Below are positions 8,984 to 28,171 of a stretch of 55,490 nucleotides of DNA, piece after piece. The position numbers and the translations under genes are program-made. Origin of the DNA: a virus. The notes beneath the pieces are model-generated. The model saw only the letters and a list, made by a program, of their open reading frames with translations, ran no database searches and was not told the origin of the DNA. The stretch's first letter is position 1. Every line of letters begins with the position of its first letter. The stretch covers positions 1-55,490 of the IMG/VR virus record IMGVR_UViG_3300037807_000763; one strand, written 5' to 3'.

Positions 8984-10024
8984 TTATTTTAAAAACTTGC
9001 TTACAATCTTCATTGCGTCCAGTGCATTCCTTCGTGTGTCCTTGATCATTTGAGAAGCTTCAGGTGAATTAGCTTTTGCATACTTTGGATTCTTGAGGCT
9101 TGATTGACTCCTCATTCTCTTAGCATACTCTGCTCTAACTTTTGTAATAAAATCTTTAGTGTCCTTAATGTTACTTAATCCTTTATGTCCTAAGACTCCA
9201 TTCGCCTGGAGAGTATTTGCCATACCTTTGATGCCAAGACAAAAGTCTTTAATGCTTACATTGTCTGTATTGATTCCTTTGTGTTTCTTAAGAAGCGGAT
9301 CAATAATAATTTTTTTTATATCAATAGACGGATCGTTGATTTTAATTAAAAATTTAGTTGCGTGTAACATAAACTTTCCAATATCTGTTGAAATTAGTTT
9401 GTAAATGACACCTTTACGTTTGTTTCCAGTAACCAGTATATCGTCTTTGAATCGTGCTAATACCCCTTCTGTACCAAAACTTAATGTTAAAACAGCACCA
9501 AGAGCACTGTATAGATTGCCTATGTTGAAGCCTTTGAATCCGTACTCAGGTTTATATCTACCAGTCATCCACTCTACATAAGGTTTAAACGTCCAAATTA
9601 AGTCGACTTGTGCGAACATATTATTATTTAGATTGAAAATTATAGATTTAGCATTAGTGTGTAATGTATCATTAACTTCAACGTTTTTAACACTCCCTGA
9701 CTTGATGAATTGCTTGAATGCGTCGTTATACTGTCTTCTAATTTTATTTTCTTCTTTTCTAAAATCATCCTTCTGTTCTACAGCAATAGGTATTTCTACC
9801 ATCATGTCAACATCACCATAGATTTTATCAATATTATTGTCTAAATCTTGTTTAACATAGCTTGTTGAGCCCACTGGAATCATCTTACCAATAGGGTCTA
9901 ATTGATTCTGTTTTAGAAACTTATTAAATCTTAATATAAATTTTTCAAATGCTATTATTGATAATTTAGCAACTGCAGGTGTCAACTTAGTACCTTGCGT
10001 TTTAGATGATTCCCAGCCTCCCAC
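8984..10024 (-). CDS. Pol-beta-superfamily nucleotidyltransferase (1)
   Basis: A 346-residue protein with the Pol-beta nucleotidyltransferase signature: PVGSTSY (helix-turn), then IYGDVDMMVEI giving the D-x-D metal pair at about residue 77, and a third acidic residue in FAQVDLIW at about 140. All three catalytic positions appear intact. Family members add nucleotides to RNA, DNA, small molecules or proteins. It starts at a GTG that overlaps the TAG of the preceding nucleotidyltransferase gene by one base, so the two are tightly coupled and may form a pair. The C-terminal 60 residues are basic (KRMRSQSSLKNPKYAK), consistent with nucleic-acid binding. Substrate unknown. Confidence 0.78.
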   Translation of the reverse strand: MGGWESSKTQGTKLTPAVAKLSIIAFEKFILRFNKFLKQNQLDPIGKMIPVGSTSYVKQDLDNNIDKIYGDVDMMVEIPIAVEQKDDFRKEENKIRRQYNDAFKQFIKSGSVKNVEVNDTLHTNAKSIIFNLNNNMFAQVDLIWTFKPYVEWMTGRYKPEYGFKGFNIGNLYSALGAVLTLSFGTEGVLARFKDDILVTGNKRKGVIYKLISTDIGKFMLHATKFLIKINDPSIDIKKIIIDPLLKKHKGINTDNVSIKDFCLGIKGMANTLQANGVLGHKGLSNIKDTKDFITKVRAEYAKRMRSQSSLKNPKYAKANSPEASQMIKDTRRNALDAMKIVSKFLK

Positions 10025-10911
10025 TATTTGATCTCATTTGGAGCTGGAAGTTTGTAACGCTGTAGAGATGTCTTGTAGGCATCAATAATTTTATTATTAA
10101 ATTTTTTGAATAAGAAGTTACTAGACTTCATTAGTTTGTATAGCTTTTCAAATGAGTCTATATCTTTGAAGGTATGATTAGACCCAAATAGAAATTTTGC
10201 AAGCTTATCCATATCACCAATGATTTTTTTAACTTTAAGTTTAACTCGTTTACCTTTTTCATTAGTAGTAAAATCAACTATCTCTACACCATTTTTCCAG
10301 TTCATTTGGAATTTTCTCTTAATATCAGGATCTTTGGTTTTTAGTATGGATTGTGAAAATATGTCTGCTATCAATAAATTGCGATAAACAGCTTTATACT
10401 TACTCCTGTAATCAGCTGCTGATAGAGATTTTTTCATAAATTCTAGATCACCAATCATTACATCAATTTGAACGAACCCAGGTGAGTCTAAGTCATTACC
10501 ATCCTTATCTATTGCAGATAATTGTTTTCCACTTTTATCTATGAGGGGTGTAATGAAATGAGCCTGTTTTAACCCCTTGTTAATTTTATGATCCTTAATT
10601 TTAGTTTTACTGAAGAACTTATCTAACTCTCCCCAGAACTCAGTTGCATCACCTTTAAATTTCATAGTTTTTGCTATAACTGATGCATCTACTGCTATGT
10701 CGATGTCACCCAGGAACGGTTTCTTATAGTTACCAATAATTGTATACTTCAATTTTTTTAACCCTGCATCAACGAGTGATTTTTTAATAGTAGCATCTAA
10801 GTGCTCACTCGGAACTGCAGAGTTCACATCACTAAAAACATTTCCCCCTTCAAGTAACATACGTTTAATCTCTTCTCGTATTAGTTTCCTTAAATTAGTT
10901 TTTGTTAACAT
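10024..10911 (-). CDS. Pol-beta-superfamily nucleotidyltransferase (2) with targeting-type N-terminus
   Basis: About 295 residues. The N-terminus MLTKTNLRKLIREEIKR leads to LLEGG, an amphipathic helix ending in L-x-E, as in head-protein leaders cut by T4 gp21-type proteases. The nucleotidyltransferase core has IIGNYKKPFLGDIDIAVD (D-x-D pair) and FVQIDVMIGD (third acidic residue). The ATG at 10911 has AAGGAG nine bases upstream; a TTG seven codons earlier lies inside that site and is not used. It overlaps the next nucleotidyltransferase gene by one base and follows the NMNAT-ligase gene closely. Function probably linked to both; delivery with the virion is inferred only from the leader. Confidence 0.75.
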   Translation of the reverse strand: MLTKTNLRKLIREEIKRMLLEGGNVFSDVNSAVPSEHLDATIKKSLVDAGLKKLKYTIIGNYKKPFLGDIDIAVDASVIAKTMKFKGDATEFWGELDKFFSKTKIKDHKINKGLKQAHFITPLIDKSGKQLSAIDKDGNDLDSPGFVQIDVMIGDLEFMKKSLSAADYRSKYKAVYRNLLIADIFSQSILKTKDPDIKRKFQMNWKNGVEIVDFTTNEKGKRVKLKVKKIIGDMDKLAKFLFGSNHTFKDIDSFEKLYKLMKSSNFLFKKFNNKIIDAYKTSLQRYKLPAPNEIK

Positions 10912-10924
10912 TTTTGTTATCTCC

Positions 10925-12673
10925 TTAATCAACTGCTCTGTCTAAGAACATTTGAGAAACAATTTCTGGCTCATTACTCTTTAATTTTGCTCTCATATTT
11001 TTAATTCTAGTGATTGTAAGTAAAATAGCTTTTTTTGTATCTTCACGTTTCTTGGGGATTGTTATCATCTCATCACCATCTGCTTTAAATGCTGCTGCGA
11101 TGAGCTTGACCTTTGCCTCGAGTTGAACTAAATATTGTTCAAGTTTCTTCGGATTTAATTTTATACTTTTCCCTAGTTCTTTTTCAGCAATCTGTAAGTC
11201 ATTCATATACTTCCAATTCCGCTCTTTGCGTGCTGTAAACTGTGATTTATCAACTATCTTAACCACATTACCATCCGGTACATATAATACAAGACCTTCG
11301 TCTTCATCACCAAATGCTCTCTGAAAATCAACTTGCAGAACTTTACCTTTCATCTTCTTTCCAATCAAATTGGCTATTCTCTGTATTTGATATTTGATTT
11401 TTTTATGATGAGGCTTTCTTGCTGGTGTGTTTAGTAGGTTACCGTATTTTTCAATTAACTTACTTAATAATATTTCATATTTCTCTTCAAAATGAACTTT
11501 CTTTAAGTTTACCTTTGGATTAGAGTAGAATGTGATAGATGTTTCTGTATTCACAGCTTTAGCAAATACATCGTGGAATGCGATGGGTGTTTCTACTCCA
11601 TCAACTATAATTTTAAACAATACTACAATGCCGTCCCCGATTGTTTCCGGGTTATACAGTACTATATTGTAGTCCCAAGATGGTATCGCTTCACATTCAA
11701 TAGATATGTTTTTAGTGTTTCCCTCAATGCCATATTTCTTTGCGTATTTATCTACTATTTTCTTGTATGGTATTTTCTTTAGTAATTTATGATACCTAAC
11801 AAAATCTTCATAGAAGTACAATGATGGGTATTCTTTTTCGCTTTTAACAGTTTTAGTCTTTGATCCAGAGTAGAATCGTCCGCCCTTAATTCCAAATTGA
11901 AAAAAGTGACCATCCACCTTTTCATTGACTTCAAATTTTGTATTATCTTCATTCCATAGCTTTAAAAACACAAGCAGATCTTTAGGCTTGAGATCCTCTA
12001 TGTGTTTGATACCCTCAGACAAAATTCCTTCTGTGATATTGAATTTTCTCTTAAAGATACTGTAAATAGATGTATTAATTTTTCCATATAATGACTTAAA
12101 AGTATCTTGAGGATTGTCGCCTTTAAAAGCTTTTCGTACTTCAGTGCCACTAATAGTAATACCATTAATTTTCACCTGAAGCTGCGGAACTGAAATTACA
12201 TACCCTTTTGTATCGAAACTTTCCATATCAGCACCCGTGTATGTTTCATAGTACTTACCAAGTAATCTACTAACATCTTCTTTCTCTCCAAGACCAACTA
12301 CTAATGCAGTAGTTTTCTCATCGAATAAAGCTTTTATCTCAACAGGATTATATGGGATTCTTACTTGAATTATGTTAGTCTTCGGAATCTTAAACATCTT
12401 AGAAATTATTGCTTGTTTTTCGTTAAAGTCAAATGGAGATTTGTCGCCTGTCTTGTTTGAAGTGGCTATATAAACGTTCTTCTTTCCGAATTTCTTAACT
12501 AAGAATTTGTATGAATGATGATGTCCGCGATGGTAAGGCTGAAACCGACCAGAATAGATAGCAATTGTTTTTGTAACTTTAGTATCTTCTAGTAACTCTG
12601 TTTTTAATTTGTCCACTACACCTTTCCAGCTTCTAATATCTGTTTCTTTTAGTAAATGTTGAATGTTTGTCAT
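10925..12673 (-). CDS. Fusion of NMN-adenylyltransferase-like and polynucleotide-ligase-like domains
   Basis: 582 residues. Residues about 35-185 are a nucleotidylyltransferase of the NadM/NadR/NMNAT type: SGRFQPYHRGHHHSY holds the GRFQPxHxGH active site and ISGTEVRKAF is the C-terminal ISxTxxR motif. Residues about 240-490 are a covalent nucleotidyltransferase (ligase/capping superfamily): motif I EKVDG with lysine 252, motif III ISIECEAI (324-331), motif IV DEDEGLVLYV (456-465) and motif V VKIVDKSQF (471-479). The first domain would make NAD from NMN and ATP; the second would seal DNA or RNA ends. The C-terminal 90 residues are helical and basic. No domain arrangement like this is familiar to me. 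It heads the nucleotidyltransferase and phosphoesterase cassette. Confidence 0.82.
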   Translation of the reverse strand: MTNIQHLLKETDIRSWKGVVDKLKTELLEDTKVTKTIAIYSGRFQPYHRGHHHSYKFLVKKFGKKNVYIATSNKTGDKSPFDFNEKQAIISKMFKIPKTNIIQVRIPYNPVEIKALFDEKTTALVVGLGEKEDVSRLLGKYYETYTGADMESFDTKGYVISVPQLQVKINGITISGTEVRKAFKGDNPQDTFKSLYGKINTSIYSIFKRKFNITEGILSEGIKHIEDLKPKDLLVFLKLWNEDNTKFEVNEKVDGHFFQFGIKGGRFYSGSKTKTVKSEKEYPSLYFYEDFVRYHKLLKKIPYKKIVDKYAKKYGIEGNTKNISIECEAIPSWDYNIVLYNPETIGDGIVVLFKIIVDGVETPIAFHDVFAKAVNTETSITFYSNPKVNLKKVHFEEKYEILLSKLIEKYGNLLNTPARKPHHKKIKYQIQRIANLIGKKMKGKVLQVDFQRAFGDEDEGLVLYVPDGNVVKIVDKSQFTARKERNWKYMNDLQIAEKELGKSIKLNPKKLEQYLVQLEAKVKLIAAAFKADGDEMITIPKKREDTKKAILLTITRIKNMRAKLKSNEPEIVSQMFLDRAVD

Positions 12674-12846: not shown

Positions 12847-13359
12847 TCAATTTAGCACTACTTCCATCGAGTCTATGTAACTATTGCCAACATTCCACCA
12901 TAACATCATAGTTGTGTTTTCCATAGAGCTCACAGGCGCAATGATATTTTTAAAATTTCCATTCTCATCTACAATTGAGACTTGGTTTGTCACTGGTGAC
13001 ATTGTATGGAAGTTATAATCCATTTGTGTACTTCCATTATCATCATACCAAAGCCCACTGTCACATGTTCTACAATCTAACTTAAAATATCCAGATGAGT
13101 TACCTACGATCCAAAAGAGATTTGAAGACCACTCAATTCTTATATTTTTTACATCAACGTCGCTAGATAGCATTATACCATTAACTGATTCAATAGATTG
13201 CCATGTCCCGCTATTAACATCGATTGATTCAATTAACTCAACCCAAATAGTAATATCACCGTATCTTGAGTTGACTGGCTCAACAACTGTATTCTCACAC
13301 CCAGTAAGCAAAAGTATTATTAGACTAATGTTTATGTTTTTTAGGATATTGTATTTCAT
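12847..13359 (-). CDS. Secreted lipoprotein
   Basis: A 170-residue protein with a lipoprotein signal peptide: basic start MKYNILKN, hydrophobic core ISLIILLL and lipobox LTGC with the lipidated cysteine at 21. The mature part is beta-rich with a later CRTC motif that could form a disulfide. Phage lipoproteins usually act at the host envelope, as superinfection exclusion proteins or outer-membrane spanins, but no specific family is recognised. Its ribosome-binding site and first ten codons lie inside copy 1 of the 54-bp repeat, so its 5' end was duplicated when the neighbouring methylase cassette arose. Confidence 0.7.
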   Translation of the reverse strand: MKYNILKNINISLIILLLTGCENTVVEPVNSRYGDITIWVELIESIDVNSGTWQSIESVNGIMLSSDVDVKNIRIEWSSNLFWIVGNSSGYFKLDCRTCDSGLWYDDNGSTQMDYNFHTMSPVTNQVSIVDENGNFKNIIAPVSSMENTTMMLWWNVGNSYIDSMEVVLN

Positions 13360-13381
13360 TTCTCTTTTTTTCCTTTATTTT
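13328..13381. repeat. 54-bp direct repeat, copy 1
   Basis: Perfectly identical to 14340-14393 in the same orientation. It contains the ribosome-binding site and first codons of the lipoprotein gene. With copy 2 it brackets the Dam methylase gene. Confidence 0.93.
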
Positions 13382-13394
13382 ATTTTTATTATTT

Positions 13395-14291
13395 TTAAAA
13401 AAGAGGAGTTTTATTAATCTCAGGTGCGTGCGCGTCAGACAGATCAGAAAACGCAGATTCTATATTCGTTATAACTACCTCAACCGTATTATCTTCTCTT
13501 TCAACTGATGAAACTCTAGCAGCCCATGCGTTATACGACATTTTAATCAATTTAGAATTATAACCCTTAGACCATTGTATTAATTCTTCGTTATTAACCC
13601 CGCGATGTGAGAACGTATTTGATAATATAAAAGAATATCCTAAAGAGTCTAATTCATCGATATATTCTAGTAGATCTATTTCATCTGACTTATTCCAGCC
13701 GCCGTATTGAAATTTAGAAGCGACATATGGTGGATCAAAATAGATTAAATCATTTTCTTTATCTATATTAGATAAATCTAAATCGCGATACGTCCCGTGT
13801 TTAACATTAATATCCTTGTTTACTACTACATTGACATGAGACTTTATTCTATCTAAATCAAATACCTTTTCTCCATACGGCACATTGTAACCATTTGGAC
13901 CGAACCTTAATAGAGAGTTAAATGATAATTGCAATAAGACATAAAGCATATGTACGTTAGAAGAATCAGTATGTCCGTTAATAGAATATAGTACATTAAA
14001 ATCTTTTCTTAATTCTAAGAAAGATTTCTTAAAATCAGTAGAATTTAAAAAGTAAGAATTATAACAATCTTCTATTTTAGAAACTAAACCTGGATCTTTT
14101 AAAGCATTATGTAATGCTACTACATTTAAATCAATATCTATGGAATTTCCACCATTATTTGAATTATACATACACACACCAGATCCCACGAATGGTTCAT
14201 GTATCCGACTATACGATTTCATGACATCTTTTAGGTACTTGTTCCAAATTCTGTACTTGTTTCCACTATATGAGAAGGGTCCTTTTATCAT
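13395..14291 (-). CDS. Dam-type DNA adenine-N6 methyltransferase (D12 class)
   Basis: About 298 residues of the D12/Dam family, which methylates adenine in short DNA sites using S-adenosylmethionine. Visible motifs: N-terminal PFSYSGNKYR (FxxxGxK type), EPFVGSG (SAM-binding motif I) and FDPPYV (catalytic DPPY, motif IV). The order matches T4 Dam. I use the ATG at 14291; a GTG at 14312 adds seven residues. There is no restriction endonuclease nearby, so a solitary modification or protection role is likely. The gene is enclosed by a perfect 54-bp direct repeat, suggesting it arrived or moves as a cassette. Confidence 0.9.
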   Translation of the reverse strand: MIKGPFSYSGNKYRIWNKYLKDVMKSYSRIHEPFVGSGVCMYNSNNGGNSIDIDLNVVALHNALKDPGLVSKIEDCYNSYFLNSTDFKKSFLELRKDFNVLYSINGHTDSSNVHMLYVLLQLSFNSLLRFGPNGYNVPYGEKVFDLDRIKSHVNVVVNKDINVKHGTYRDLDLSNIDKENDLIYFDPPYVASKFQYGGWNKSDEIDLLEYIDELDSLGYSFILSNTFSHRGVNNEELIQWSKGYNSKLIKMSYNAWAARVSSVEREDNTVEVVITNIESAFSDLSDAHAPEINKTPLF

Positions 14292-14321
14292 AATATCTTT
14301 TTTATTATACACTAATTTTTA

Positions 14322-14504
14322 TTAAAGTTTCATAGCCATATGTTTATGTTTTTTAGGATATTGTATTTCATTTCTCTTTTTTTCCTTTATTTTTTTTGCC
14401 TCTTTATGATTCAATTTCTTCTTTTTTCTTTTACTGTTGCAAATAAGCTCACTCTCTTCTAGTGCTTCAAATTCTTCTTCGTAATCTATCCAATTATTTT
14501 TCAT
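14322..14504 (-). CDS. Lysine-rich short ORF, probably truncated or chimeric
   Basis: A 60-residue frame, acidic at the start (DYEEEFEALEESEL) and then very lysine-rich. Its last part, from about residue 42, reads through copy 2 of the 54-bp repeat, which encodes the start of the lipoprotein gene in a different frame. The 3' end is therefore probably an artefact of the duplication, and the original stop may have been elsewhere. It starts one base after the stop of the 14506-14754 gene. Function unknown. Confidence 0.4.
   Translation of the reverse strand: MKNNWIDYEEEFEALEESELICNSKRKKKKLNHKEAKKIKEKKRNEIQYPKKHKHMAMKL
14340..14393. repeat. 54-bp direct repeat, copy 2
   Basis: Perfect copy of 13328-13381, 1,012 bp away. 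It lies upstream of the methylase and inside the 3' part of the short lysine-rich frame. Confidence 0.93.
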
Positions 14505-14505
14505 G

Positions 14506-14754
14506 TCAATTATACAATACCTTCCACTTACTTAATTTATCTAAAAATTCTGTAATTGTGAATTTTTTCCCTGAGTCCTGGACAATAGTTAAAGTTTCTA
14601 GCATTTCTGGGTGATTATTCACAATAGACATTAATGATTTCATTCCCCTATTAGCATAGAATGTGCCAAAACTTTCATCTCCAAGAGTATTTGCATCAAA
14701 GTCTAGCTCTGCTTGACCGTCATCTGAAAGCATGATATAGTATGTTGTTGCCAT
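14506..14754 (-). CDS. Hypothetical protein, 82 residues, leaderless transcript likely
   Basis: A soluble acidic protein starting MATTYYIMLSDDGQAELDFD. No family recognised. The promoter at 14760-14788 places its -10 only five bases from the ATG, so transcription should start at or beside the start codon, and no ribosome-binding site is present. It is probably translated from a leaderless mRNA. Confidence 0.6.
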   Translation of the reverse strand: MATTYYIMLSDDGQAELDFDANTLGDESFGTFYANRGMKSLMSIVNNHPEMLETLTIVQDSGKKFTITEFLDKLSKWKVLYN

Positions 14755-14759
14755 ATTAG

Positions 14760-14788
14760 AATCTAGCTATGTTTATTGACAAATGAAA
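14760..14788 (-). promoter_or_regulatory. Phage promoter, copy E
   Basis: TTTCAT (14783-14788), 17-base spacer, TAGATT (14760-14765) followed by CTA, the same layout as copies A-D. It separates the glycan island from the gene group at 12.8-14.8 kb. Confidence 0.65.
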
Positions 14789-14814
14789 CCTATTTTTGTC
14801 TTTTTTTTGTAAAA

Positions 14815-15990
14815 TTATTCTTTAATAAATATATTATCATTTTGGTTTTCTTGGAGTTTTAAAATCTCTATATTAAAGTTCCCAAGTTTGAACTTACCTG
14901 TCTCACCACTATCGTTAAATATCCACGGGAATTTTGCTATCATATCACCGTCTTGCTGTGTAAGTTGTTTTAAATCGAACTCAACGATAATATCATTTTT
15001 ACATTTCTTTTTATACGATTCTCCGCCATAGCATTTGTTACTTAGATCTATCAATGTATTTTGCTGTTCTCTGTCAATGTAGTCCAAGACAACAAATTCA
15101 TTATCAATAAAAATATTAGAACACCAAGGTTCTAACATGTGCAGATGTTCAATATTACAATTGTGAACTACAAAGCCTATGTTATATATGGGTGCAACTA
15201 TTGGATTCAACGTCGAGTTATGTAGAACCTCTGTACCCCACTTTCTGATAAAATTCCTTACGTTCTTAGAGTTAGTCGCTTTCCACTCAGGACTATCCTT
15301 TCCTGTGTCACCACCTGAAAGTTTGTTATATCTACTTCCCCTGCTGGTAAAGTGGTAAACTAGTGCATCCCAGGATTGAATAATCTCATATCCATTTAGT
15401 TTAAATCTATTAAACAAGTCTGAATCTTCTCTTGACTGAGGTGCGAATAATTTATCATGGCCTCCAATTGATAGAAAATCTTCTCTATACATACACCAGG
15501 GAGCAAAAATACCATCAGTTACTTTTTCATTTTCAAATGATGTATTATTCTCAATCCACTTGCTCATCTCAAATGTCTTTACTTCACTACCAAAGTCATG
15601 AATTATTTTTTCAGGACCCGGAGGATGAAGAGGTGGTTCTATTCTTGTTCCAGAAACTACGATTCCTTTCCTGAGATGTTTCAAGATGTTAATATCAAAG
15701 TTATTCCCAGCAACCATATCAGCATGAAAAGCACATATAATTTTTGTTGTTGCCAACTCAATGCCTTTATCAAACATTCCTACTATACCAATCCTTTCAG
15801 GCCCAGGATTTGTATGAATTATTAATTTATCATCTTTTAGATTTTCTAACCATTTGCTAGTATCATCCGTACTTGCGTCATCTAAAATCAAGATCTCATG
15901 ATTTCCTGACAAATTCCTTATTGAATGGTATGCAAGCTCTAAAAATTCTAAGTTGTTTCTTGTTGGTATTACGAATGTAATTTGTTTCAT
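14815..15990 (-). CDS. Family 2 glycosyltransferase
   Basis: About 391 residues. The N-terminal GT-A fold shows TFVIPTRNNLEFLELAYHS, the nucleotide-sugar binding LDDASTDDT and an acidic metal-site variant FHADMV near residue 100. The later GGHDKLFAPQSREDSDLFNR segment is typical of GT2 acceptor-side loops. The true start is the ATG at 15990, which overlaps the TGA of the upstream methyltransferase by four bases (ATGA); the longer frame to 16017 is inside that gene. The C-terminal 140 residues are not recognised. It probably adds a sugar to a phage or host glycan; donor unknown. Confidence 0.85.
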   Translation of the reverse strand: MKQITFVIPTRNNLEFLELAYHSIRNLSGNHEILILDDASTDDTSKWLENLKDDKLIIHTNPGPERIGIVGMFDKGIELATTKIICAFHADMVAGNNFDINILKHLRKGIVVSGTRIEPPLHPPGPEKIIHDFGSEVKTFEMSKWIENNTSFENEKVTDGIFAPWCMYREDFLSIGGHDKLFAPQSREDSDLFNRFKLNGYEIIQSWDALVYHFTSRGSRYNKLSGGDTGKDSPEWKATNSKNVRNFIRKWGTEVLHNSTLNPIVAPIYNIGFVVHNCNIEHLHMLEPWCSNIFIDNEFVVLDYIDREQQNTLIDLSNKCYGGESYKKKCKNDIIVEFDLKQLTQQDGDMIAKFPWIFNDSGETGKFKLGNFNIEILKLQENQNDNIFIKE

Positions 15991-16643
15991 TTCTGTATAA
16001 CACCGACCATAATCCATGACTGGCTTAAATCAGCAGTTAGCGTTGACCCCCATTGTTTGTCAATTCCCGGCATGTTAAACGTCTGGAGAGGCACCTCAAT
16101 TATTCCGAACCCAGTTATGTCGCAGTCTTTAAAATTTCTGAATAATATTTCTGTAAATTCTTTTGGGTCGTATTCATATAGATGTGTTCCCCCATTGTAA
16201 GTCCATGTTGGTGTTTTCCTCTTGGGGGTAGTAATAACAAGAGTTTCAGATGTAACACTACTTATAGATTGTAGATATTGATCGATTCTATCTGGGGGTA
16301 GATGTTCAAATGTTTCTATTGAAACACAAACTTCAAATTGGTCTTTATTAAACTTACTACTTAAGTCGAAAATATCACATACTTCAAACTTGCACTTATC
16401 TGACTCAAATCTTTTATTCGAGTTAGTAATTGCGTCTTTGTCTAAATCTATTCCTATAACGCTAGTTGAGCCAAGAGATTGCAAAATTCCTGCGCCGTAG
16501 CCATATCCAGTCGCAGCATCCAACACAGTCTTTTCCTTGGTCCAATGTGATGCAAGCACATATCGATCTATCATTGTTGATACTGCAGGATACATAAATC
16601 TGTCAATCTTTGTTATGTGTGTATTATCTGTTTTTTTAACCAT
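15987..16643 (-). CDS. Class I SAM-dependent methyltransferase
   Basis: 218 residues of the class I methyltransferase fold: motif I VLDAATGYGYGAG, then VIGIDLDKDAI (acidic end of strand 2), CDIFDL and SIETFEHLPPDRI (post-motif region, as in UbiE/COQ5-like enzymes). The substrate is likely a small molecule or sugar, because it sits between glycosyltransferases and overlaps the next one by four bases. DNA methylation is unlikely, as there is no DPPY-type motif. Confidence 0.85.
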   Translation of the reverse strand: MVKKTDNTHITKIDRFMYPAVSTMIDRYVLASHWTKEKTVLDAATGYGYGAGILQSLGSTSVIGIDLDKDAITNSNKRFESDKCKFEVCDIFDLSSKFNKDQFEVCVSIETFEHLPPDRIDQYLQSISSVTSETLVITTPKRKTPTWTYNGGTHLYEYDPKEFTEILFRNFKDCDITGFGIIEVPLQTFNMPGIDKQWGSTLTADLSQSWIMVGVIQK

Positions 16644-16700
16644 TATTATTCCAGTTTTTTATTTTTTAAGTAACATGTAGTATTGCTATAAGTAATGTCA

Positions 16701-17678
16701 TCAATACTCATCTTTAACGACCTCTAAAAACTTTTTTTGACTAAACTCTTCTTTAAACACCCTTTTTGCTGTTTGGCTACACTTTATGTAAAACTCTTTG
16801 TCTTCTTTTAATTTTCTTGCTAATTGTATTGCTGACTGAATATCATACGTCTGAACAGATAATTCTGGATAGCATAATCTTTGTGTGTCAGCTTTTATCT
16901 CACCGATACAAGGAATTCCGTAGTAAGCACAATTTAAGCTAAAACTTGCTGATGCAGATGTGCCCGGAAGATTTACTGCGTATTTGTAAGATTGCAAATT
17001 TTGTATCCAAGTTTTCCAGTCAACATATTCTAAATAATTAACTCCAAATGCAGGAGCAGTCTCCCAAGAATCTTTGGGCATTCTAGACTTGCCCATTGGA
17101 GGAATATAAATGCCACAATCAAATTCCTTTGCGATGATTGTTTGTTGAAGACCGTTATACTCACGAGTAAAGGGTCCTGAGATTATTGCCTTGTTTTCTT
17201 GTTTAAGATTTTTCTTCTCTTGCGGAAGCATGATGCTCCTTACTACAGATACTGGTATATTTTTGAACATTCCTTTATAATAATTGACATCTGATAAATT
17301 AGGACAAAGAATCTTGTCACATGCTGAAACATTGTTATACCACCAAATTTGTAAAACTGTGTCATGTTGATTCCAATACCCTACTTCTCCGTCTTGATAA
17401 AATAAAACTTTTCCAGAAAACTTCTTCTTAATTTCTTGAATAGCATTAAAGTGCGTTTTTACTAACCAGTGAATTATCTGTTTTTCCATATCACCTTTAG
17501 GGAGAGCTACGACAACATTTCCTTCGTATGTTGTGTCTTCTGTTAGAACCTTGTCAATTGGAAGAGCAAATGCATCCCATGTGTATATTTGGGTCTCAAG
17601 TACTCTCATGTGGGGATGTTCATTTACTAAAAATTTTCCAGTCATTCCTTGTTCTGAAATACAATAGTCTATTTTCAT
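16701..17678 (-). CDS. GT-B-like glycosyltransferase, divergent
   Basis: 325 residues, probably a GT-B glycosyltransferase. The C-terminal part has a GTSASASFSLNCAYYGIPCIG segment, similar to the donor-binding site that grips the nucleotide, followed by a C-terminal helix pair (ARKLKEDKEFYIKCSQTAKR) typical of GT4-like enzymes. It overlaps the WbqC-family gene by four bases. No exact family can be named. Confidence 0.6.
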   Translation of the reverse strand: MKIDYCISEQGMTGKFLVNEHPHMRVLETQIYTWDAFALPIDKVLTEDTTYEGNVVVALPKGDMEKQIIHWLVKTHFNAIQEIKKKFSGKVLFYQDGEVGYWNQHDTVLQIWWYNNVSACDKILCPNLSDVNYYKGMFKNIPVSVVRSIMLPQEKKNLKQENKAIISGPFTREYNGLQQTIIAKEFDCGIYIPPMGKSRMPKDSWETAPAFGVNYLEYVDWKTWIQNLQSYKYAVNLPGTSASASFSLNCAYYGIPCIGEIKADTQRLCYPELSVQTYDIQSAIQLARKLKEDKEFYIKCSQTAKRVFKEEFSQKKFLEVVKDEY

Positions 17679-18244
17679 AAGTTAGCCAGTGTTGTGTATA
17701 AATTGGGTACATTGGGTTCAAAAAATGAAACATCAATTCCTTCAAAGTAACTAAGGTCTAAATAGTCTCGTCCTGATGGGCCGCTAATGTATTCTTTCGC
17801 ATTTAATTCTTTGCAAATGTTCCCTAGTAACTCTGACTTAGAGCCCTCTGCAGATAGCGTAGCAGCGCGGATGATAGGTGTATCGACTCCCAGTCTACCA
17901 GCACAATATACAATACTTCTGATGTTGATGTCTGCTAATAGTTCTGTCTCATACACATGTGTTAAGTCTAATTTGAAGTTATAAGAAAGTTTTTTTAGTA
18001 TTTTAGTTCGCCAGTTTGTTTCAGATGGTTTAACATCTTTGATTTGCTTCTTGACAGCGTCTTTCGGGACAGGTATTGTAAACCATTCTTCAACACCTTG
18101 TGAATTTTTAAATCTATTCCTATTCTGAAAATAATTCTTTCTAAAATTAACATTATCAAGGATCACAATAATATCAGCTTTGTTCATTTTTTGAAAGAAT
18201 CCCAAATATGGGAAATGTTCTGGTTGGTGGATTGTAACTTTCAT
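17675..18244 (-). CDS. WbqC-family protein
   Basis: 189 residues matching the WbqC family, found in O-antigen and sugar-modification clusters. It has the characteristic start TIHQPEHFPYLGFFQKM, then ADIIVILDNVNF and NRNRFKNSQG. The biochemical activity of the family is poorly defined; some members act in amino-sugar biosynthesis. GGAG lies eight bases before the ATG. It sits between the glycosyltransferase and the PIG-L deacetylase-like gene, with a 23-bp palindrome in the upstream gap. Confidence 0.82.
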   Translation of the reverse strand: MKVTIHQPEHFPYLGFFQKMNKADIIVILDNVNFRKNYFQNRNRFKNSQGVEEWFTIPVPKDAVKKQIKDVKPSETNWRTKILKKLSYNFKLDLTHVYETELLADINIRSIVYCAGRLGVDTPIIRAATLSAEGSKSELLGNICKELNAKEYISGPSGRDYLDLSYFEGIDVSFFEPNVPNLYTTLANL

Positions 18245-18270
18245 TATTTAGTCTCCATGCTATAAATCAT

Positions 18271-18293
18271 TAATAGAACATAATGTTCTATTA
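18271..18293. promoter_or_regulatory. 23-bp palindrome, possible operator
   Basis: Two perfect 11-bp arms (TAATAGAACAT and ATGTTCTATTA) around a single central base, in the 77-base gap between the PIG-L-like and WbqC genes. There is no U-tract, so a dimeric protein binding site fits better than a terminator. Confidence 0.45.
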
Positions 18294-18321
18294 ACTTTGC
18301 CTGTATTATTGTGTATGCTAA

Positions 18322-18957
18322 TTAAAGCCATTTTAGTATCCTGTAGACGTCATAATGTTCGTAATCATTATGAACAAAGTTTTCCATTTGATATGTCTTT
18401 CCGATGTTATAGTGTTCTTCACTCTGTAAATAGTAGCCAAGTTTTGTATATGATTGTTCTGCTTGAATGTTATACTTGTTACACATTTTTACTTTAATGT
18501 CCCAAGCATCTTTATCAAGTGGTATCCAATAATTAGTCTTAAATTTTGAAGAACTTGGTGAGTAAATAGTTATAAATTTGTTTGTGTACTTATACATTCC
18601 CATTGCAATCATATTAATAGCAAGATGATCAGTATGACAGTCTTTGTCATCGTGAGTAAGAATGTCAAACCTTTGATCAAAGTTAATAATTCCGTAAAAC
18701 TTATCTTTTAGATCATCAAGATTTGTTTGCAACTTCCTTTGTGGAAACTTTAAGTTAATATAGTTAAATTCTTTATTTTTGAGGTGTGAAGACATTAAGT
18801 CAATATTGCCTCTCCAGATTTTATCTTTTCTTTCCCAATCTGATGCTATTATCAAGTTGATATTATCATAGTCATTTGCATGTTTATTGATATATCCCCA
18901 GCAAGACAATTCAATATCATCAATATGTGCTACTAAAACATAAAGATCTTTCTTCAT
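18322..18957 (-). CDS. PIG-L/LmbE-family deacetylase
   Basis: 211 residues of the zinc-dependent PIG-L family, which removes N-acetyl groups from amino sugars. The zinc motif AHIDDIEL near the N-terminus and the CHTDHLAI motif in the middle supply the conserved His and Asp ligands. The length is normal. It overlaps the HAD phosphatase gene by four bases. In this glycan island it probably deacetylates an N-acetylhexosamine intermediate or nucleotide sugar. Confidence 0.85.
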   Translation of the reverse strand: MKKDLYVLVAHIDDIELSCWGYINKHANDYDNINLIIASDWERKDKIWRGNIDLMSSHLKNKEFNYINLKFPQRKLQTNLDDLKDKFYGIINFDQRFDILTHDDKDCHTDHLAINMIAMGMYKYTNKFITIYSPSSSKFKTNYWIPLDKDAWDIKVKMCNKYNIQAEQSYTKLGYYLQSEEHYNIGKTYQMENFVHNDYEHYDVYRILKWL

Positions 18958-19355
18958 TTTAAAATTCCTACGTTTTCTAAATTAGCAAGTGCTCTATCCC
19001 AATCAGTAAATCTAATTCCTTTGTCGTCTATGTAGCAAACTGCTCTGGGTTTTTCTGAAGTAACTAGCTTTACGTATTTGTCCATTTGATATTTTTCCAA
19101 CCACTCCCAAACAAGCACTGTACCTGTCTTACCATTAACGAGACCTCTATCAGGCTTAGCTTTTGCTGTAAAAATTATAATGTCATATTGCTCTGATAAC
19201 AGTTTTAAAGATTCGAATGATCCCTCAACGGGCTCATCATAAATTGTACCATCATAGTAGCCCTTTGAGCACTTGTGAATTACACCATCAAAGTCTATTG
19301 CTAGATTTGTTAATTCATCTTGAAAACTATTTTCTCTTATGTCTTTATCTGCCAT
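18954..19355 (-). CDS. HAD-superfamily phosphatase
   Basis: A 133-residue HAD hydrolase without a large cap: motif I AIDFDGVIH, motif II FTAK and motif IV CYIDDKGIRF. It removes phosphate from small metabolites, probably a sugar phosphate. It follows the SIS isomerase gene with a TAATG junction, the same order of functions as GmhA then GmhB in heptose synthesis, although it is shorter than classical GmhB. Confidence 0.8.
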   Translation of the reverse strand: MADKDIRENSFQDELTNLAIDFDGVIHKCSKGYYDGTIYDEPVEGSFESLKLLSEQYDIIIFTAKAKPDRGLVNGKTGTVLVWEWLEKYQMDKYVKLVTSEKPRAVCYIDDKGIRFTDWDRALANLENVGILK

Positions 19356-19888
19356 TATTGTCTCGTTTTAAGTTTTGGGATTGTGTATCCTGCTTCCTCA
19401 TAAAGTCTGTACATCAACATGATAATTAAAATTTCGTATTTGTAATAGTGTGATGTATTTATATCTATAGTATTCTTTGCTGGCTTACCTTCAAAATTTC
19501 CAGTAATTAAAAAATTATCAATATTATGATTACTTGCCCATTTGAGGGCTTCATTTACATCTGGGGAATTACCTGATGCTGAAAAGCCGATTACAAGTGC
19601 AAAATGGTTTTTGTGGTCCTTAATTTGTGATGTCAGCCAATCTGATAACCATGTTTTGTAGTCGTAGTCGCCATGCCATATTGCTACAGTATCTGAGTCA
19701 GGTGATAGGAACTTTTTATCATTGTTCATTAAGCGCATTAGATCTGTGCCGAGGTGTCGGGTGATTGCTGTATTACCTCCGTGACTACACAAATAAATCT
19801 CTGTTGATAGTGAAAACTTCTCACTCAAGTCTTTCCAAGCCTTAGTATCTACTAGTGTGTTGTACCTCCACTCTAAATTTGTATACAT
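19355..19888 (-). CDS. SIS-domain sugar isomerase (GmhA-like)
   Basis: 177 residues of the SIS fold, closest in pattern to GmhA, which converts sedoheptulose 7-phosphate to heptose 7-phosphate. Visible sites: CSHGGNTAITRHLGTDL, which binds phosphate and contains the family Asn, and GFSASGNSPDVNEAL, the second phosphate-binding loop. Typical GmhA has about 190 residues. It is coupled to a HAD phosphatase and an epimerase, consistent with a heptose-type sugar pathway. Confidence 0.82.
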   Translation of the reverse strand: MYTNLEWRYNTLVDTKAWKDLSEKFSLSTEIYLCSHGGNTAITRHLGTDLMRLMNNDKKFLSPDSDTVAIWHGDYDYKTWLSDWLTSQIKDHKNHFALVIGFSASGNSPDVNEALKWASNHNIDNFLITGNFEGKPAKNTIDINTSHYYKYEILIIMLMYRLYEEAGYTIPKLKTRQ

Positions 19889-20766
19889 TATTTATCCTCT
19901 AGTATTTCAAGCAATGCATCATTGAGCTCTCTATTAGTATTCTTAGTCAACTTGAAAACACGATCTTTTGTGTATGTATAAGGACAAACTTTGTAATGTG
20001 ATTCTGTCCTGCCTTCTGTAATATTTGTTTTAAAATTAATCTTTAAGTCTCCTCCCATTAGTTCCCTTATAATATTAAACAGATCACTAGTTCTCGTCTT
20101 GTAAGAACCTGTTATTGCTAGGGTTTTGTTATCCTGACTACTTCTTATTGCTGCTAAGCTTAAGTCTGCCGCATCCTCAACATGGATATATTCTCTAATT
20201 TCAGTTCCGTCCCCTGTATAATTTATCTGATTGCTATCAAGTGCCTCTGTTAGGAATTTTTCAATGCTATTTGTTTCTGGCGCGCCGAGACCATAGATTG
20301 TGCCAAAACGAAGTAGAGAATATTTTAAATTAAAAAAGTTATGAAAGTCTTTAATGATCATTTCACACGTCTTCTTTGTAGATGAATAAAATCCTCCATG
20401 ATTTCCACCTGCGTACATACTACTAGCAAAAATAAATTTTGCAATTCTTTTTTCAACACATACTTGTAATAACTTGGTCGTTCCCAATACATTATATGTT
20501 ACACATTTGACTGGATCTAGAAGACACTCATCAATATCAGATATGCCTGCTAAGTGAAAGACAATATCACCTTTACTAATTGATCTATTAAGTACCCCCT
20601 TGTCAAGTATTGAACCAACTATTGACTCAATGTTCTCATTATTTTCTAATGGTGGGGTGACATCAATAACCTTCACAAAGTAACCAAGCTTTACAGCTGC
20701 AGCAGCTATATAACTGCCCAAGAATCCATTCCCGCCTGTAATAATTATAGTTTGTTTTTTATGCAT
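19888..20766 (-). CDS. NAD-dependent epimerase/dehydratase
   Basis: About 292 residues of the extended SDR family that acts on nucleotide sugars. NAD site TGGNGFLGS at the N-terminus, the FHLAGISDID strand and a catalytic region with serines at FASSMYAGG and a YSLLRFGTIYG segment. I did not see a standard YxxxK; the nearest tyrosine-lysine is in GGFYSSTKKTCE, which fits YxxxK as YSSTK. The ATG at 20766 overlaps the upstream dehydrogenase by eight bases; the 21-residue extension lies inside that gene. Confidence 0.82.
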   Translation of the reverse strand: MHKKQTIIITGGNGFLGSYIAAAAVKLGYFVKVIDVTPPLENNENIESIVGSILDKGVLNRSISKGDIVFHLAGISDIDECLLDPVKCVTYNVLGTTKLLQVCVEKRIAKFIFASSMYAGGNHGGFYSSTKKTCEMIIKDFHNFFNLKYSLLRFGTIYGLGAPETNSIEKFLTEALDSNQINYTGDGTEIREYIHVEDAADLSLAAIRSSQDNKTLAITGSYKTRTSDLFNIIRELMGGDLKINFKTNITEGRTESHYKVCPYTYTKDRVFKLTKNTNRELNDALLEILEDK

Positions 20767-21604
20767 TTTGAATATTTTTAATTGCTTCAGTTTCCATTTT
20801 GTGTCTTGCTTTTTTTGTATAGCTACCAATATGGGGTGTCATGATTACATTTTTGAGAATTGATAATCCAGAATTCCAATCATAGGGCTCATTTTCAAAT
20901 ACATCTAAAGCAGCAATTGCATTATTATTTTGCACAAGCCACTTGTACAAGTCCTTCTCATTAAAGATTTCACCCCTTGATGTGTTGACTAGAATTACGT
21001 CTTCTTTCATTTGAGAAAAATCAGATTTTTCAATTTGTTTGCTAAGCTTGGGAACATGGAATGTGATTATATCAGACTCTCTATAGATCTCTTCTAAAGT
21101 AGTTGTGTCTTCTATCTCGATGTCGTTTACAAGTACTCCCTTTGGTGAGAAAGACTTTAAATGTTTTTCTACTTTTTTCCCAATCCTGCCGTACCCGACG
21201 ATTCCAATGACACATTCACTTAGCTCTCTACCTAAGGACTTTTTCCAAATTTTTTGATTATGAAGCCTCAAAGCTGATAATATAAATGCAATTGTCAACT
21301 CTGCAACTGCATTTGTGGGTGCATCAGGTGTATTATAGACTTTGATATTTCTTTTTTTACACTCCTGAAGATTGATTGATGATACACCAATACCAACTCT
21401 GGAAATTAATTTTAAGTTACTACATAAATCAAGTTCCTGTTTTCCATAATTTTCTGTGCCTGCTATTATTATTTCTGGGTTTACTTTTTTTAGAAGCGAA
21501 AGAATCTCTCGCTGTGTATACTTCATCTTTTTTGTGTTATATGTTACATTATTAAACCCATCAACAGGCACAGTAAAAGGGTGTGTAGTTACCAATACTT
21601 TCAT
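20759..21604 (-). CDS. D-isomer 2-hydroxyacid dehydrogenase (SerA-like)
   Basis: 281 residues of the D-2-hydroxyacid dehydrogenase family, which oxidises or reduces 2-hydroxy/2-keto acids with NAD(P). NAD site GIVGYGRIGKKV, then LVNTSRGEIFNEKDL, the catalytic arginine region SRVGIGVSS, ENEP and the catalytic histidine in TPHIGS. It lies between a NeuA-like cytidylyltransferase gene and an epimerase gene, so it probably makes or uses a 2-keto acid sugar precursor. The specific substrate is unknown. Confidence 0.85.
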   Translation of the reverse strand: MKVLVTTHPFTVPVDGFNNVTYNTKKMKYTQREILSLLKKVNPEIIIAGTENYGKQELDLCSNLKLISRVGIGVSSINLQECKKRNIKVYNTPDAPTNAVAELTIAFILSALRLHNQKIWKKSLGRELSECVIGIVGYGRIGKKVEKHLKSFSPKGVLVNDIEIEDTTTLEEIYRESDIITFHVPKLSKQIEKSDFSQMKEDVILVNTSRGEIFNEKDLYKWLVQNNNAIAALDVFENEPYDWNSGLSILKNVIMTPHIGSYTKKARHKMETEAIKNIQNA

Positions 21605-22296
21605 TAGAAGTTGTAAAATTCTCCCCAGTTATAGATTTCGTTATCTGAGTAGATAGCTTTTGCCACTGCGTAATCGAATGGTGTGTCTATATCAATTGAC
21701 TCAACTTCATCTGTTAAGATGAACCCTGGATTATCACCTACAACTCTTGACATTCCTCTTAGTACATCTCTTTTTGCGATTGTAATACCGTAATTTAATT
21801 TAAAAATTTCAGGAAGATCCTGGCTGTTTGGTACATCATCTAAATCATAGTTTAGTGGATAACCATCAAGCCACAAATGATTTTTAACTTCTGTAATTGA
21901 TGTGATACTATCATAGCTATTTTCTAGATAAAACTTAATTGCTGATTCATGTGTTTTGACTGAAATAAAGGGTGAACAAACTGGTGCAAGAAAAATGTGT
22001 TCTGCATTAGTTATTTCTCCAATGTGCTTATGAAATTCAGAATTAGTACACTCTGAACTTGCATAGTATTCCTCACGTTTGTGTATTGAACAATCATAAT
22101 CTTCACCAATTGAGAGCATTAAGTCAGAATCACTATTAACTATTATTTCTTCAATAAAACCTGCGGCCTTGAGAAGGGCTAAGACTTCTAGCTTTCTTTC
22201 AAGTAAAGTTTTGCTACCAATCTTTTGTAAATTCTTGTCTTTGATTCTCTGCGATCCACTTCTGACTGCAACAACTGCTGTTATACCTGTTGACAT
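21604..22296 (-). CDS. Acylneuraminate/KDO-type cytidylyltransferase (NeuA-like)
   Basis: 230 residues of the CMP-sugar synthetase family, which activates nonulosonic acids or KDO by transferring CMP from CTP. The N-terminus AVVAVRSGSQRIKDKN is the CTP-binding loop, slightly altered from the usual ARxGSKRxxxKN. Later landmarks are IVNSDSD and the APVCSPFISVKTH segment. The ATG at 22296 shares one base with the stop of the upstream SDR (TAATG). With the GT29-like gene at 24542 it suggests synthesis and transfer of a sialic-acid-like sugar, but no NeuB synthase is visible in the window. Confidence 0.85.
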   Translation of the reverse strand: MSTGITAVVAVRSGSQRIKDKNLQKIGSKTLLERKLEVLALLKAAGFIEEIIVNSDSDLMLSIGEDYDCSIHKREEYYASSECTNSEFHKHIGEITNAEHIFLAPVCSPFISVKTHESAIKFYLENSYDSITSITEVKNHLWLDGYPLNYDLDDVPNSQDLPEIFKLNYGITIAKRDVLRGMSRVVGDNPGFILTDEVESIDIDTPFDYAVAKAIYSDNEIYNWGEFYNF

Positions 22297-23027
22297 TAAA
22301 ATTGTCCCCCATTGATATCCAAACATGCACCATGAATATAGTTGCTTTTATTTGAACATAAAAATAAAATTGGATCAACAATCTCAGTAACTGTTGCTAG
22401 TCGCTTTAGAGGTATAGTTCTTTCTAACTCTTGTATCTGTTCTTCTCTCATAGATTGTTGTAACATATCAGTTAAAGTTTGACTTGGGCAAACACAGTTT
22501 ATATTAATTCCTTTGGGACCAAGTTCTTGTGCAAATTGTCTTGTTAGTCCAATGATACCTGACTTAGATGCTGTATAATGAACCCCACTGACAATACTCT
22601 TACTTCGTCCTGCAATTGATGAGACATTGACGATTTTACTACCGTACTTCATTCTTTTGACAGCTTCTTTAATTGTCAAGAAAAAAGATCTTAGATTAGT
22701 ATCTAAAACCTCATCCCATTCACATGATGAAATATCTTCATGGTTTTTGCAATAATTTATTCCTGCAACGTTTACTAAAATGTCTAGTTTACCTTCTTTC
22801 TTGTCGAATTCTTCAAATCCTCTTATGATGCCAGATTCATTTTTTATATTCACAGGAATATGAGTTGAGTAATGAAAGGGTCTTATGCTTGGTATTCTAT
22901 TATCTTCTTTTTTACTTCTTGAGAAATAATAAGTGTCGTATCCCAAACTCTGAAAAGCTTCAGTGACACCTTTGCCGATTCCTCGACTGCCGCCAACAAC
23001 TAGTACTTTCTTAGTGTATATAGACAT
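22296..23027 (-). CDS. Short-chain dehydrogenase/reductase
   Basis: 243 residues of the classical SDR family: GGSRGIGKG cofactor loop, NVAGINY, a serine at NVSSIAGRS, the catalytic YTASKSG (YxxxK) and a GININCVCPS stretch. It looks like FabG-type or sugar-acid reductases, and the cluster suggests a sugar-derived keto group as substrate. It overlaps the cupin gene by 17 bases and ends one base into the NeuA-like gene. Confidence 0.88.
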   Translation of the reverse strand: MSIYTKKVLVVGGSRGIGKGVTEAFQSLGYDTYYFSRSKKEDNRIPSIRPFHYSTHIPVNIKNESGIIRGFEEFDKKEGKLDILVNVAGINYCKNHEDISSCEWDEVLDTNLRSFFLTIKEAVKRMKYGSKIVNVSSIAGRSKSIVSGVHYTASKSGIIGLTRQFAQELGPKGININCVCPSQTLTDMLQQSMREEQIQELERTIPLKRLATVTEIVDPILFLCSNKSNYIHGACLDINGGQF

Positions 23028-23448
23028 GTTCTACATCTGGTTTTGTTATCGCGTACCTAGCACCCGGTCCTGATATACATGTAATAAGATGAAGTGTTCC
23101 TTTTTTTACAATAATTATATCATTTTGTGAAACTTTTTTTGTTCCCTGTCCGTCAATCCACCACTCCCACTCGCCATCTAGTATAACCCAATTTTCATCA
23201 GCGTTTGGGTGATAATGTTTCCTGTTTCCTTCACCTGATTGTTGATTAATTATAACCCCGCCGAATGCGTCATTATATGCTAATCTAACTGCCCAGGATT
23301 TATCTACACCAAACTCTGCTCTAAGACTTGATAAGTTTGTTGTTGTAGCATTTTCATATTTTTGTAAAGTTTCCCATTGTATGTTGTCTAAGCCATCTGC
23401 TTTTAAAACTTTAACTACATCTGTTTCTGAAGTGATTATATTTTGCAT
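23011..23448 (-). CDS. Cupin-fold protein
   Basis: 145 residues with a single cupin barrel: KHYHPNADENWVILDGE is the metal-binding first cupin motif and DIIIVKKGTLHLITCISG the second. Small cupins of this type act as sugar isomerases, epimerases or binding proteins in glycan clusters; the WWIDGQG region is not diagnostic. It overlaps the SDR gene and is the first gene of its block after an 86-base AT-rich gap. Confidence 0.78.
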   Translation of the reverse strand: MQNIITSETDVVKVLKADGLDNIQWETLQKYENATTTNLSSLRAEFGVDKSWAVRLAYNDAFGGVIINQQSGEGNRKHYHPNADENWVILDGEWEWWIDGQGTKKVSQNDIIIVKKGTLHLITCISGPGARYAITKPDVEHVYIH

Positions 23449-23534
23449 AATATATTTTCATAAATAGTGTTTTTTGTAAAGGTCTTTAACATGTTTTTAT
23501 AACCTGTTTTATATATATATAAACTGTTTTGTTG

Positions 23535-24545
23535 TTAATGTAATTTTTTAATAATATTGTCCCAGGTGTTGTACCAATTATACTCTGTCTTGATTCTTTT
23601 TTGAATCTTCTGTATAAACGGTAATTGTTTATCAACATTCTTGATATAATACTCTGAAAGTTCTTTGTATTCATCTGCATGTCGCGACCAAACAACTTCA
23701 TCTTCATTGAAGAAATCTAAAACCCCCGGAGAATCAGCAACACCAAATCTTCCTGCTGTGAAAACAGACCAGAATCTATCCTGGATACCATGTTCAACTT
23801 TCCAAGATAGTGCGTTGATGATTGGGCATAGTTTTGATGATGTTAGTATCTTTTTATGCTCATTATCTTCTACAGGACCTCGTTGTGTTCCCATACCTGC
23901 TAAGTTCCATGTATATTTTCCTGTATTCAGAGGTTGCAAGAATTGTTCAACTGAATCAATATTTCCTCTGCCTTTTTTACCCCAAATGCTGCCAACGAAG
24001 CCTAAGTCAGCTTTAAAATTATCCATTACTGGTTTAGCATTTTGAATCTCATCCCAATCATACAAAGATGAACCCCAGGGAACCCAAAATATTCTGTTTT
24101 CTTTTTCTAATTTATTAACAATTCGTTTCTTCTCTGGAAACTCTTCATATCTAGTTTTACATCCAAAAGAGTAGATATTAACTCCTGCGTCTAATGCATC
24201 TTCTACTAATTTGTATGGTGTCCACCTCCAAGTTTTGCACCACTCTTCACACTCGTCCCATGTATTACCCCATGTAACATTAGAATCGTAATTACCCAAT
24301 GCTGTTAGTTTTTGTAAGATCACATCACCTGGTTTATAGATTCCTTCATTGATAAGCCAGACTAAGTCTGGTTCACACCATGAAATAAAAATCCGATTTT
24401 TTTCATTACCAATATCTTCTTTTTCTACCCATCTTACATCATAACCCAAATGCTTTAATACTTTTTCAAACCTTAGCCACGGGTACCAATTCGTATGTTG
24501 ATGTGGTTTTGTGTATCCCAAAAGATAAATTACTCTATTTCTCAT
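23535..24545 (-). CDS. CgeB-like glycosyltransferase
   Basis: 336 residues of GT-B type. The C-terminal part (ADLGFVGSIWGKKGRGN, then GIQDRFWSVFTAGRFGVAD and VVWSRHADEYKELSEYY) matches the CgeB/glycosyl-transferase family 1 C-terminal pattern, with the donor site followed by a late helix that wraps back. It overlaps the sialyltransferase-like gene by four bases. The sugar is unknown. Confidence 0.78.
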   Translation of the reverse strand: MRNRVIYLLGYTKPHQHTNWYPWLRFEKVLKHLGYDVRWVEKEDIGNEKNRIFISWCEPDLVWLINEGIYKPGDVILQKLTALGNYDSNVTWGNTWDECEEWCKTWRWTPYKLVEDALDAGVNIYSFGCKTRYEEFPEKKRIVNKLEKENRIFWVPWGSSLYDWDEIQNAKPVMDNFKADLGFVGSIWGKKGRGNIDSVEQFLQPLNTGKYTWNLAGMGTQRGPVEDNEHKKILTSSKLCPIINALSWKVEHGIQDRFWSVFTAGRFGVADSPGVLDFFNEDEVVWSRHADEYKELSEYYIKNVDKQLPFIQKIQKRIKTEYNWYNTWDNIIKKLH

Positions 24546-25327
24546 TTTAATAACTCATGTATTTCGTTGTCTAATGTAAATTTATTTTCTGTTTGGCATA
24601 ACAATTTTATAATGTGCATTTGAGGTTCTTGTGAGTGACCTTCTTTCTGCATATTTATCATACCATTATATTTGCCAGATTTGTCATTATTTGTAGAACC
24701 TGCTTTATAGTCTCCAACCCACCCATCTTGAAAGAATGATATACCTGTTAAGTGGAGTGTTTTTACATCATAGTTTATTAAGTCTAAAATTGCTGATGTT
24801 GCTACGTTTGACCTTGTCTCCATTGATATATGTGTGTTTAAGTGATAAATAAGATCTGAGGGCACATGGAAATTGATCCTTTTGTTATTTTGCTTGTCAA
24901 AATTCTTGTTATCATTGTGAAAATAGCTTAAGTTATATGGAAATTGTGATGCGAGCCATTCGACACCATGTTCAACCATGCTATCAATATCATATTGGCC
25001 ACCGTTATTTTCATGTTCCATCATACAGTGGTAACGTATATTTGTTTTTTGGCCGTAATCTTTTTCTAATTCTTTAGTTGGTTGCCATGCTTTGTTTAAT
25101 CTTACAACAATATCATATTTGTCAATTGATGCGCCTCGACCAAGTCCTTGTAGATATGGTGAAGGCCCAACAACAATAACACTTTTGCCCATCAAGTATT
25201 TATTAAACTTAGAAGATATTTTTACATCGCTTCTTATTATACTAAGTTCCTCATTAGTTAAATCAGTTTTACATCCCTCTCTAAAGGGTTCATCAACTGT
25301 CCAATCAAATGTTTTATAAAGATGCAT
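24542..25327 (-). CDS. GT29 sialyltransferase-like glycosyltransferase
   Basis: About 261 residues with the arrangement of family GT29: sialyl motif L as VGPSPYLQGLGRGASID followed by KYDIVVRLN, sialyl motif S as SNVATSAILDLINY and LTGISFF, and a late HSQEPQMHI resembling the small H...E motif. GT29 enzymes transfer sialic acid from CMP-sialic acid and are best known from eukaryotes. The ATG at 25327 overlaps the upstream GT2 gene by 14 bases; the longer GTG frame runs inside that gene. The NeuA-like gene at 21604 could supply the CMP-sugar. Donor and acceptor are inferred. Confidence 0.78.
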   Translation of the reverse strand: MHLYKTFDWTVDEPFREGCKTDLTNEELSIIRSDVKISSKFNKYLMGKSVIVVGPSPYLQGLGRGASIDKYDIVVRLNKAWQPTKELEKDYGQKTNIRYHCMMEHENNGGQYDIDSMVEHGVEWLASQFPYNLSYFHNDNKNFDKQNNKRINFHVPSDLIYHLNTHISMETRSNVATSAILDLINYDVKTLHLTGISFFQDGWVGDYKAGSTNNDKSGKYNGMINMQKEGHSQEPQMHIIKLLCQTENKFTLDNEIHELLK

Positions 25328-25937: not shown

Positions 25938-25939
25938 TT

Positions 25940-26857: not shown

Positions 26858-26858
26858 C

Positions 26859-28169: not shown

Positions 28170-28171
28170 TT

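Follow-up and report, generated by a model that had tools for sequence, protein, structure and literature searches.

Phage genes commonly overlap, which is expected to block insertions, and gene gain in phages is nonetheless constant. The operon described here raises the question of how a new gene can come to lie between two genes that share sequence while both of them remain whole. The window (the whole stretch of DNA analysed, a 55,490-bp virus record of the IMG/VR type) comes from a marine bacterial virus and, judged by its gene content, is a piece of a large tailed phage.

Organisation of the operon

The operon runs on the minus strand from a putative promoter through a conserved 82-aa gene, a lysine-rich gene and a methylase gene to a lipoprotein gene, the methylase and both flanking frames all being encoded on this strand. 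Its features are the following:

14755..14800, minus strand: putative phage promoter upstream of the operon, TTTCAT-N17-TAGATTCTA, motif at 14765
14506..14754, minus strand: 82-aa gene at the head of the operon, conserved in relatives
14322..14504, minus strand: lysine-rich gene, 60 aa (55 ancestral codons and five new ones, MAMKL, out of the cassette)
14340..14393, minus strand: repeat copy 2, final 18 codons of the ancestral lysine-rich gene
13382..14339, minus strand: inserted cassette between the copies, 958 bp, absent here in all relatives read
13395..14291, minus strand: D12-class N6-adenine DNA methyltransferase of the Dam type, 298 aa (PF02086, phrog_56, 1yfj)
13328..13381, minus strand: repeat copy 1, lipoprotein ribosome-binding site and first 32 nt of the gene (10 codons and 2 nt)
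12847..13359, minus strand: lipoprotein gene, 170 aa, lipobox LLTGC, conserved in relatives

The promoter motif recurs on the minus strand (37049, 14765, 8249 and 2770, with a related element near 369-466) and precedes a DNA polymerase gene, the 82-aa gene, a vWA-domain-like gene and a MoxR-like gene; two of its sites sit within a 98-nt element whose copies are 93% alike. Since sequence resembling the operon promoter also lies upstream of the 82-aa gene in three related loci (L017, L032 and L091), TTTCAT-N17-TAGATTCTA probably represents a phage-specific promoter class, from which the methylase may be transcribed.

Other parts of the window deserve a brief description. The gene at 10925-12673 (upstream cassette gene) has close relatives, at 82%, in a different phage context that does not have this operon. 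It belongs to a block of three genes (8984-12673, a cytidylyltransferase-like gene and two frames) with 62-84% protein identity to another phage (L093-L098) in which the neighbours differ, and we regard this block, on these comparisons, as a second horizontally moving module. From 14815 to 29650 extends a run of genes for glycosyltransferase-like, sugar epimerase, sugar-nucleotide and SIS-domain enzymes, which suggests a surface-sugar pathway encoded by the phage itself.

The methylase gene

The stop codon of the methylase (13395) lies 13 bases from repeat copy 1, and its best start, ATG at 14291 (MIKGPFSYSGNK), lies 48 bases from copy 2; a longer GTG start at 14312 leaves 27 bases. The protein belongs to PF02086 (E=1.4e-20, 74.5 bits for a cut-off of 22), with its residues 8-244 aligned to positions 1-242 of the 253 of the profile, and it also matches phrog_56 (E=3e-36). 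The closest solved structure is T4 Dam (1yfj, E=4.7e-17). The catalytic DPPY motif (DPPYVASKFQYGGW) and the N-terminal SAM-binding FSYSGNK motif are both present and are invariant in the homologue of locus L001. With T4 Dam and the phrog_56 enzymes it shares the fold family, the DPPY motif and a Dam-like LRFxxNGYNVPYG stretch, and like them it is free-standing, no restriction partner being adjacent; it differs from them in sequence, the best named-phage enzymes among the matches listed being only about 26-32% identical and all of them below 60%. The enzyme is an ordinary, new member of a known family. It probably modifies the DNA of the phage, which may give protection from restriction or a similar benefit; GATC is only mildly under-represented in the window (184 observed, 222 expected).

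Among the 35 genes of the window, the methylase is the top outlier in codon usage (z=5.6), with a per-codon excess about 2.5 times that of the next gene. The search of bacterial and archaeal genomes gave no match, and the nearer homologues (59-65%) were found in viral contigs of two other kinds: in L001 the homologue is flanked by a putative scaffold gene and a capsid gene, and in L084-L089 its neighbour is a ClpP-like gene. Because of this codon usage and of the unrelated phage contexts of its homologues, the methylase is most likely a recent foreign gene. The homologue loci have no flanking direct repeats comparable to those of the window, the longest shared exact word being 13 bp. Frames resembling GIY-YIG nucleases occur 1-4 kb from the homologues in two unrelated phage contexts (L001:357-875, L084:121-810 and L087:107-796), and such nucleases are a possible vehicle for the spread of the methylase.

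The direct repeat

The initial annotation had described a perfect 54-bp direct repeat closely bracketing the methylase, and this description holds: positions 13328-13381 and 14340-14393 are identical at 54 of 54 bases, with a spacing of 1012, and the distances that it gave as 14 and about 50 bases come to the 13 and 48 reported above. The contents that it assigned to the copies were also recovered, copy 1 carrying the lipoprotein ribosome-binding site and 10 codons (plus 2 nt) and copy 2 carrying 18 codons of the lysine-rich frame. Given the base composition, about 2e-21 such repeat pairs are expected by chance. Within about 1.28 Mb of sampled related phage loci, no other perfect direct repeat spaced at 150-5000 bp is as long, and the runners-up measure 30-34 bp; most of the 11 that were examined are intergenic, AT-rich and promoter-like, and a few are intragenic. 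A longer, decayed duplication extending past the 54 bp had no support (p 0.24 or worse), and an exact search for the repeat in viral contigs, with wobble allowed, gave no match.

The repeat is made up of 22 nt that contain the lipoprotein ribosome-binding site and of 32 of the 35 bases of the ancestral overlap between the two genes. Its AAAGGA begins 5 nt into the repeat, and its other end falls one base short of the ancestral TAG; the duplicated stretch comes within about 5 nt of the minimum needed to leave both genes whole. Both copies are in use, the upstream one in the lysine-rich gene and the downstream one in the lipoprotein gene. Copy 2 also bears a stranded lipoprotein start followed by 13 codons to a stop (MKYNILKNINIWL, 14371-14330).

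A repeat this short in an IMG/VR-type record might reflect an assembly artefact, in which unrelated sequences were joined at the repeat because its 54 bp fell below the k-mer length. Such an artefact would require two independent false joins, the sequences flanking each copy are unique, neither neighbouring gene is broken or out of frame, and the reading frame of the lysine-rich gene runs on into the cassette sequence to a stop; we therefore hold this explanation to be very improbable.

Relatives and the ancestral arrangement

Relatives were found through the neighbouring glycosyltransferase, an alignment of the lipoprotein and the 82-aa gene. The lipoprotein alone as a query gave no match, and named phages gave no match either to the 82-aa gene and one relative's lipoprotein or in a search at the DNA level. 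Methylase-free relatives with a single copy of the repeated region, which the initial annotation had proposed to look for, do exist (19 loci). All 19 loci that were read in detail preserve the gene order (82-aa, lysine-rich, lipoprotein). In each of them the lysine-rich gene ends within the first part of the lipoprotein gene, this overlap is single-copy, and no methylase is found at the site. The search with the 82-aa gene returned 27 loci, in 24 of which the lipoprotein follows that gene after about 140-300 nt with the lysine-rich gene alone between them; two of the remaining three were too short to judge and the third is L125, where additional genes precede the lysine-rich gene but the overlap is retained. 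These genes (L125:4225-5659, about 1.2 kb including a 153-aa frame) lie between the 82-aa and lysine-rich genes without any repeats, and the operon thus accepts insertions outside the overlap too.

In five of the nearest relatives (L099, L101, L032/L102, L017/L104 and L091/L108) the overlap is exactly 35 nt, and AAGGA or AAGGAG lies at a matching position within the lysine-rich gene. When the cassette and one copy are deleted from the window in silico, the resulting lysine-rich gene has 55 codons, ends in KKHKH and overlaps the lipoprotein gene by 35 nt, as in these relatives (55-56 codons, 35 nt). Because the joined site reproduces their overlap and gene length, the repeat can be equated with the lipoprotein ribosome-binding site together with the gene overlap. 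The initial annotation had proposed that the arrival of the cassette duplicated the 5' end of the lipoprotein gene. The duplication itself is supported by the single-copy, methylase-free relatives; what was duplicated is not the lipoprotein start alone but the overlap, including the end of the lysine-rich gene, with both copies used.

As deletion between the copies in silico recovers the arrangement of the relatives exactly, excision of the cassette by recombination between them, also suggested earlier, is plausible from the sequence. The same deletion could be read in the opposite direction, with an ancestral methylase that the relatives have lost. This reading would need many losses, since the single-copy overlap is conserved across loci whose 82-aa genes are 33-67% identical, and it sits badly with the foreign codon usage of the methylase; we give it almost no credence. 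A relative closer than about 67% (neighbouring proteins at the site) was not found, and the insertion is known from one genome.

Origin of the duplication

The two copies are alike at 54/54 positions and match the relatives at only 37-44/54, which places the duplication in the lineage of the window, after the split. Zero changes over 54 sites bound the divergence between the copies at about 5%, and the duplication is recent enough that no difference has accumulated. The same figures bear on another route, homologous recombination with a circular molecule, or with a close relative, in which the overlap region already lay beside a methylase gene. One crossover with a circular donor within 54 bp of homology would yield the structure seen here. 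We consider this route unlikely: the copies resemble each other far more than they do any known relative, none of which exceeds 44/54, and no methylase homologue elsewhere bears this flank.

Considering all these data, we propose with good confidence that the Dam-type methylase was inserted at the lysine-rich/lipoprotein overlap through junctions offset by 54 bp, which duplicated the overlap and spared both genes. Briefly, a methylase gene from another phage would have entered the operon of a large tailed phage at the 35-nt overlap. The offset of the two junctions would have doubled the stretch from the lipoprotein ribosome-binding site through the last sense codon of the lysine-rich gene, leaving one copy on each side of the cassette. 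The upstream copy completes the lysine-rich gene, whose five additional codons and new stop derive from the cassette; the downstream copy supplies the ribosome-binding site and start of the lipoprotein gene. Offset junctions may have arisen by illegitimate recombination or by template switching during phage replication, for example in the repair of a long staggered break. Selection would have retained the event that spared both genes, and insertions here without duplication of the overlap would be discarded. The states before and after are both observed, in the relatives and in the window, and from them we infer the offset mechanism. Against it counts that there is no nuclease and no similarity beyond the repeat, so that no physical mechanism is visible.

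An identical end state would be left if the overlap had first been tandemly duplicated by slippage, which the A-rich left boundary would favour, and a second, clean insertion had afterwards placed the methylase between the copies. This sequence of events has a low probability in our view, since it needs two events, the first of which gives a 54-bp duplication that is useless until the second, and a bare tandem duplication occurs in no relative examined.

The insertion through offset junctions that we favour makes this site a before-and-after view of how the barrier set by a gene overlap is passed, with a duplication barely above the functional minimum, and indicates that viruses with tightly packed genes can still acquire new ones. 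Tentatively, overlap duplication could be a general way for phages whose genes overlap to take in new ones: an insertion would survive only if its junctions were offset by no less than the combined length of overlap and ribosome-binding site, and it would leave a direct-repeat scar that also makes the gain reversible. Phage genomes can be screened for such a scar, which has a copy of a gene end to one side and of a gene start to the other, and the general claim is directly testable. No description of natural overlap duplication at insertions was found in the literature searched, whose coverage was partial; our claim of novelty is therefore modest, the overlap-sparing insertion being apparently an undescribed variant of phage gene gain.

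Comparison with known systems

The locus was compared with known element types. A transposable element with target-site duplication does not fit, the methylase being the sole gene between the copies, with no transposase and no terminal inverted repeat joining the two ends of the cassette; a 54-bp duplication is moreover too long for the usual transposases. Insertion by a homing endonuclease was likewise discarded, as 13382-14339 contains no nuclease and no other sizeable gene.

In the refactoring of phage T7, engineers reportedly duplicated overlaps in order to separate genes. The window resembles that design, in that the overlap is duplicated and both separated genes survive, and differs from it in that the duplication is natural and coupled to a gene insertion. 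Homing-endonuclease insertions can split phage genes, as in T4 gene 39/60 (reviewed in PMC5009743). Like that case, ours is an insertion in a compact coding region whose neighbours stay functional; unlike it, the cassette has no endonuclease and neither gene is split, their shared end and start being duplicated instead. Finally, PeSLs are promoter-terminator cassettes that flank and shuffle genes of T4-type phages (Arbiol et al. 2010, Comeau et al. 2014, as cited in PMC4503421). The window repeat was not assigned to this type: it matches a stretch that codes in two frames in the relatives, and the promoter motif, at 14765, lies outside it. The two systems have in common short repeats around a gene subject to gain and loss in a large tailed phage, and they differ in that the repeat of the window is a coding overlap and unique, whereas a PeSL is a regulatory cassette and dispersed.
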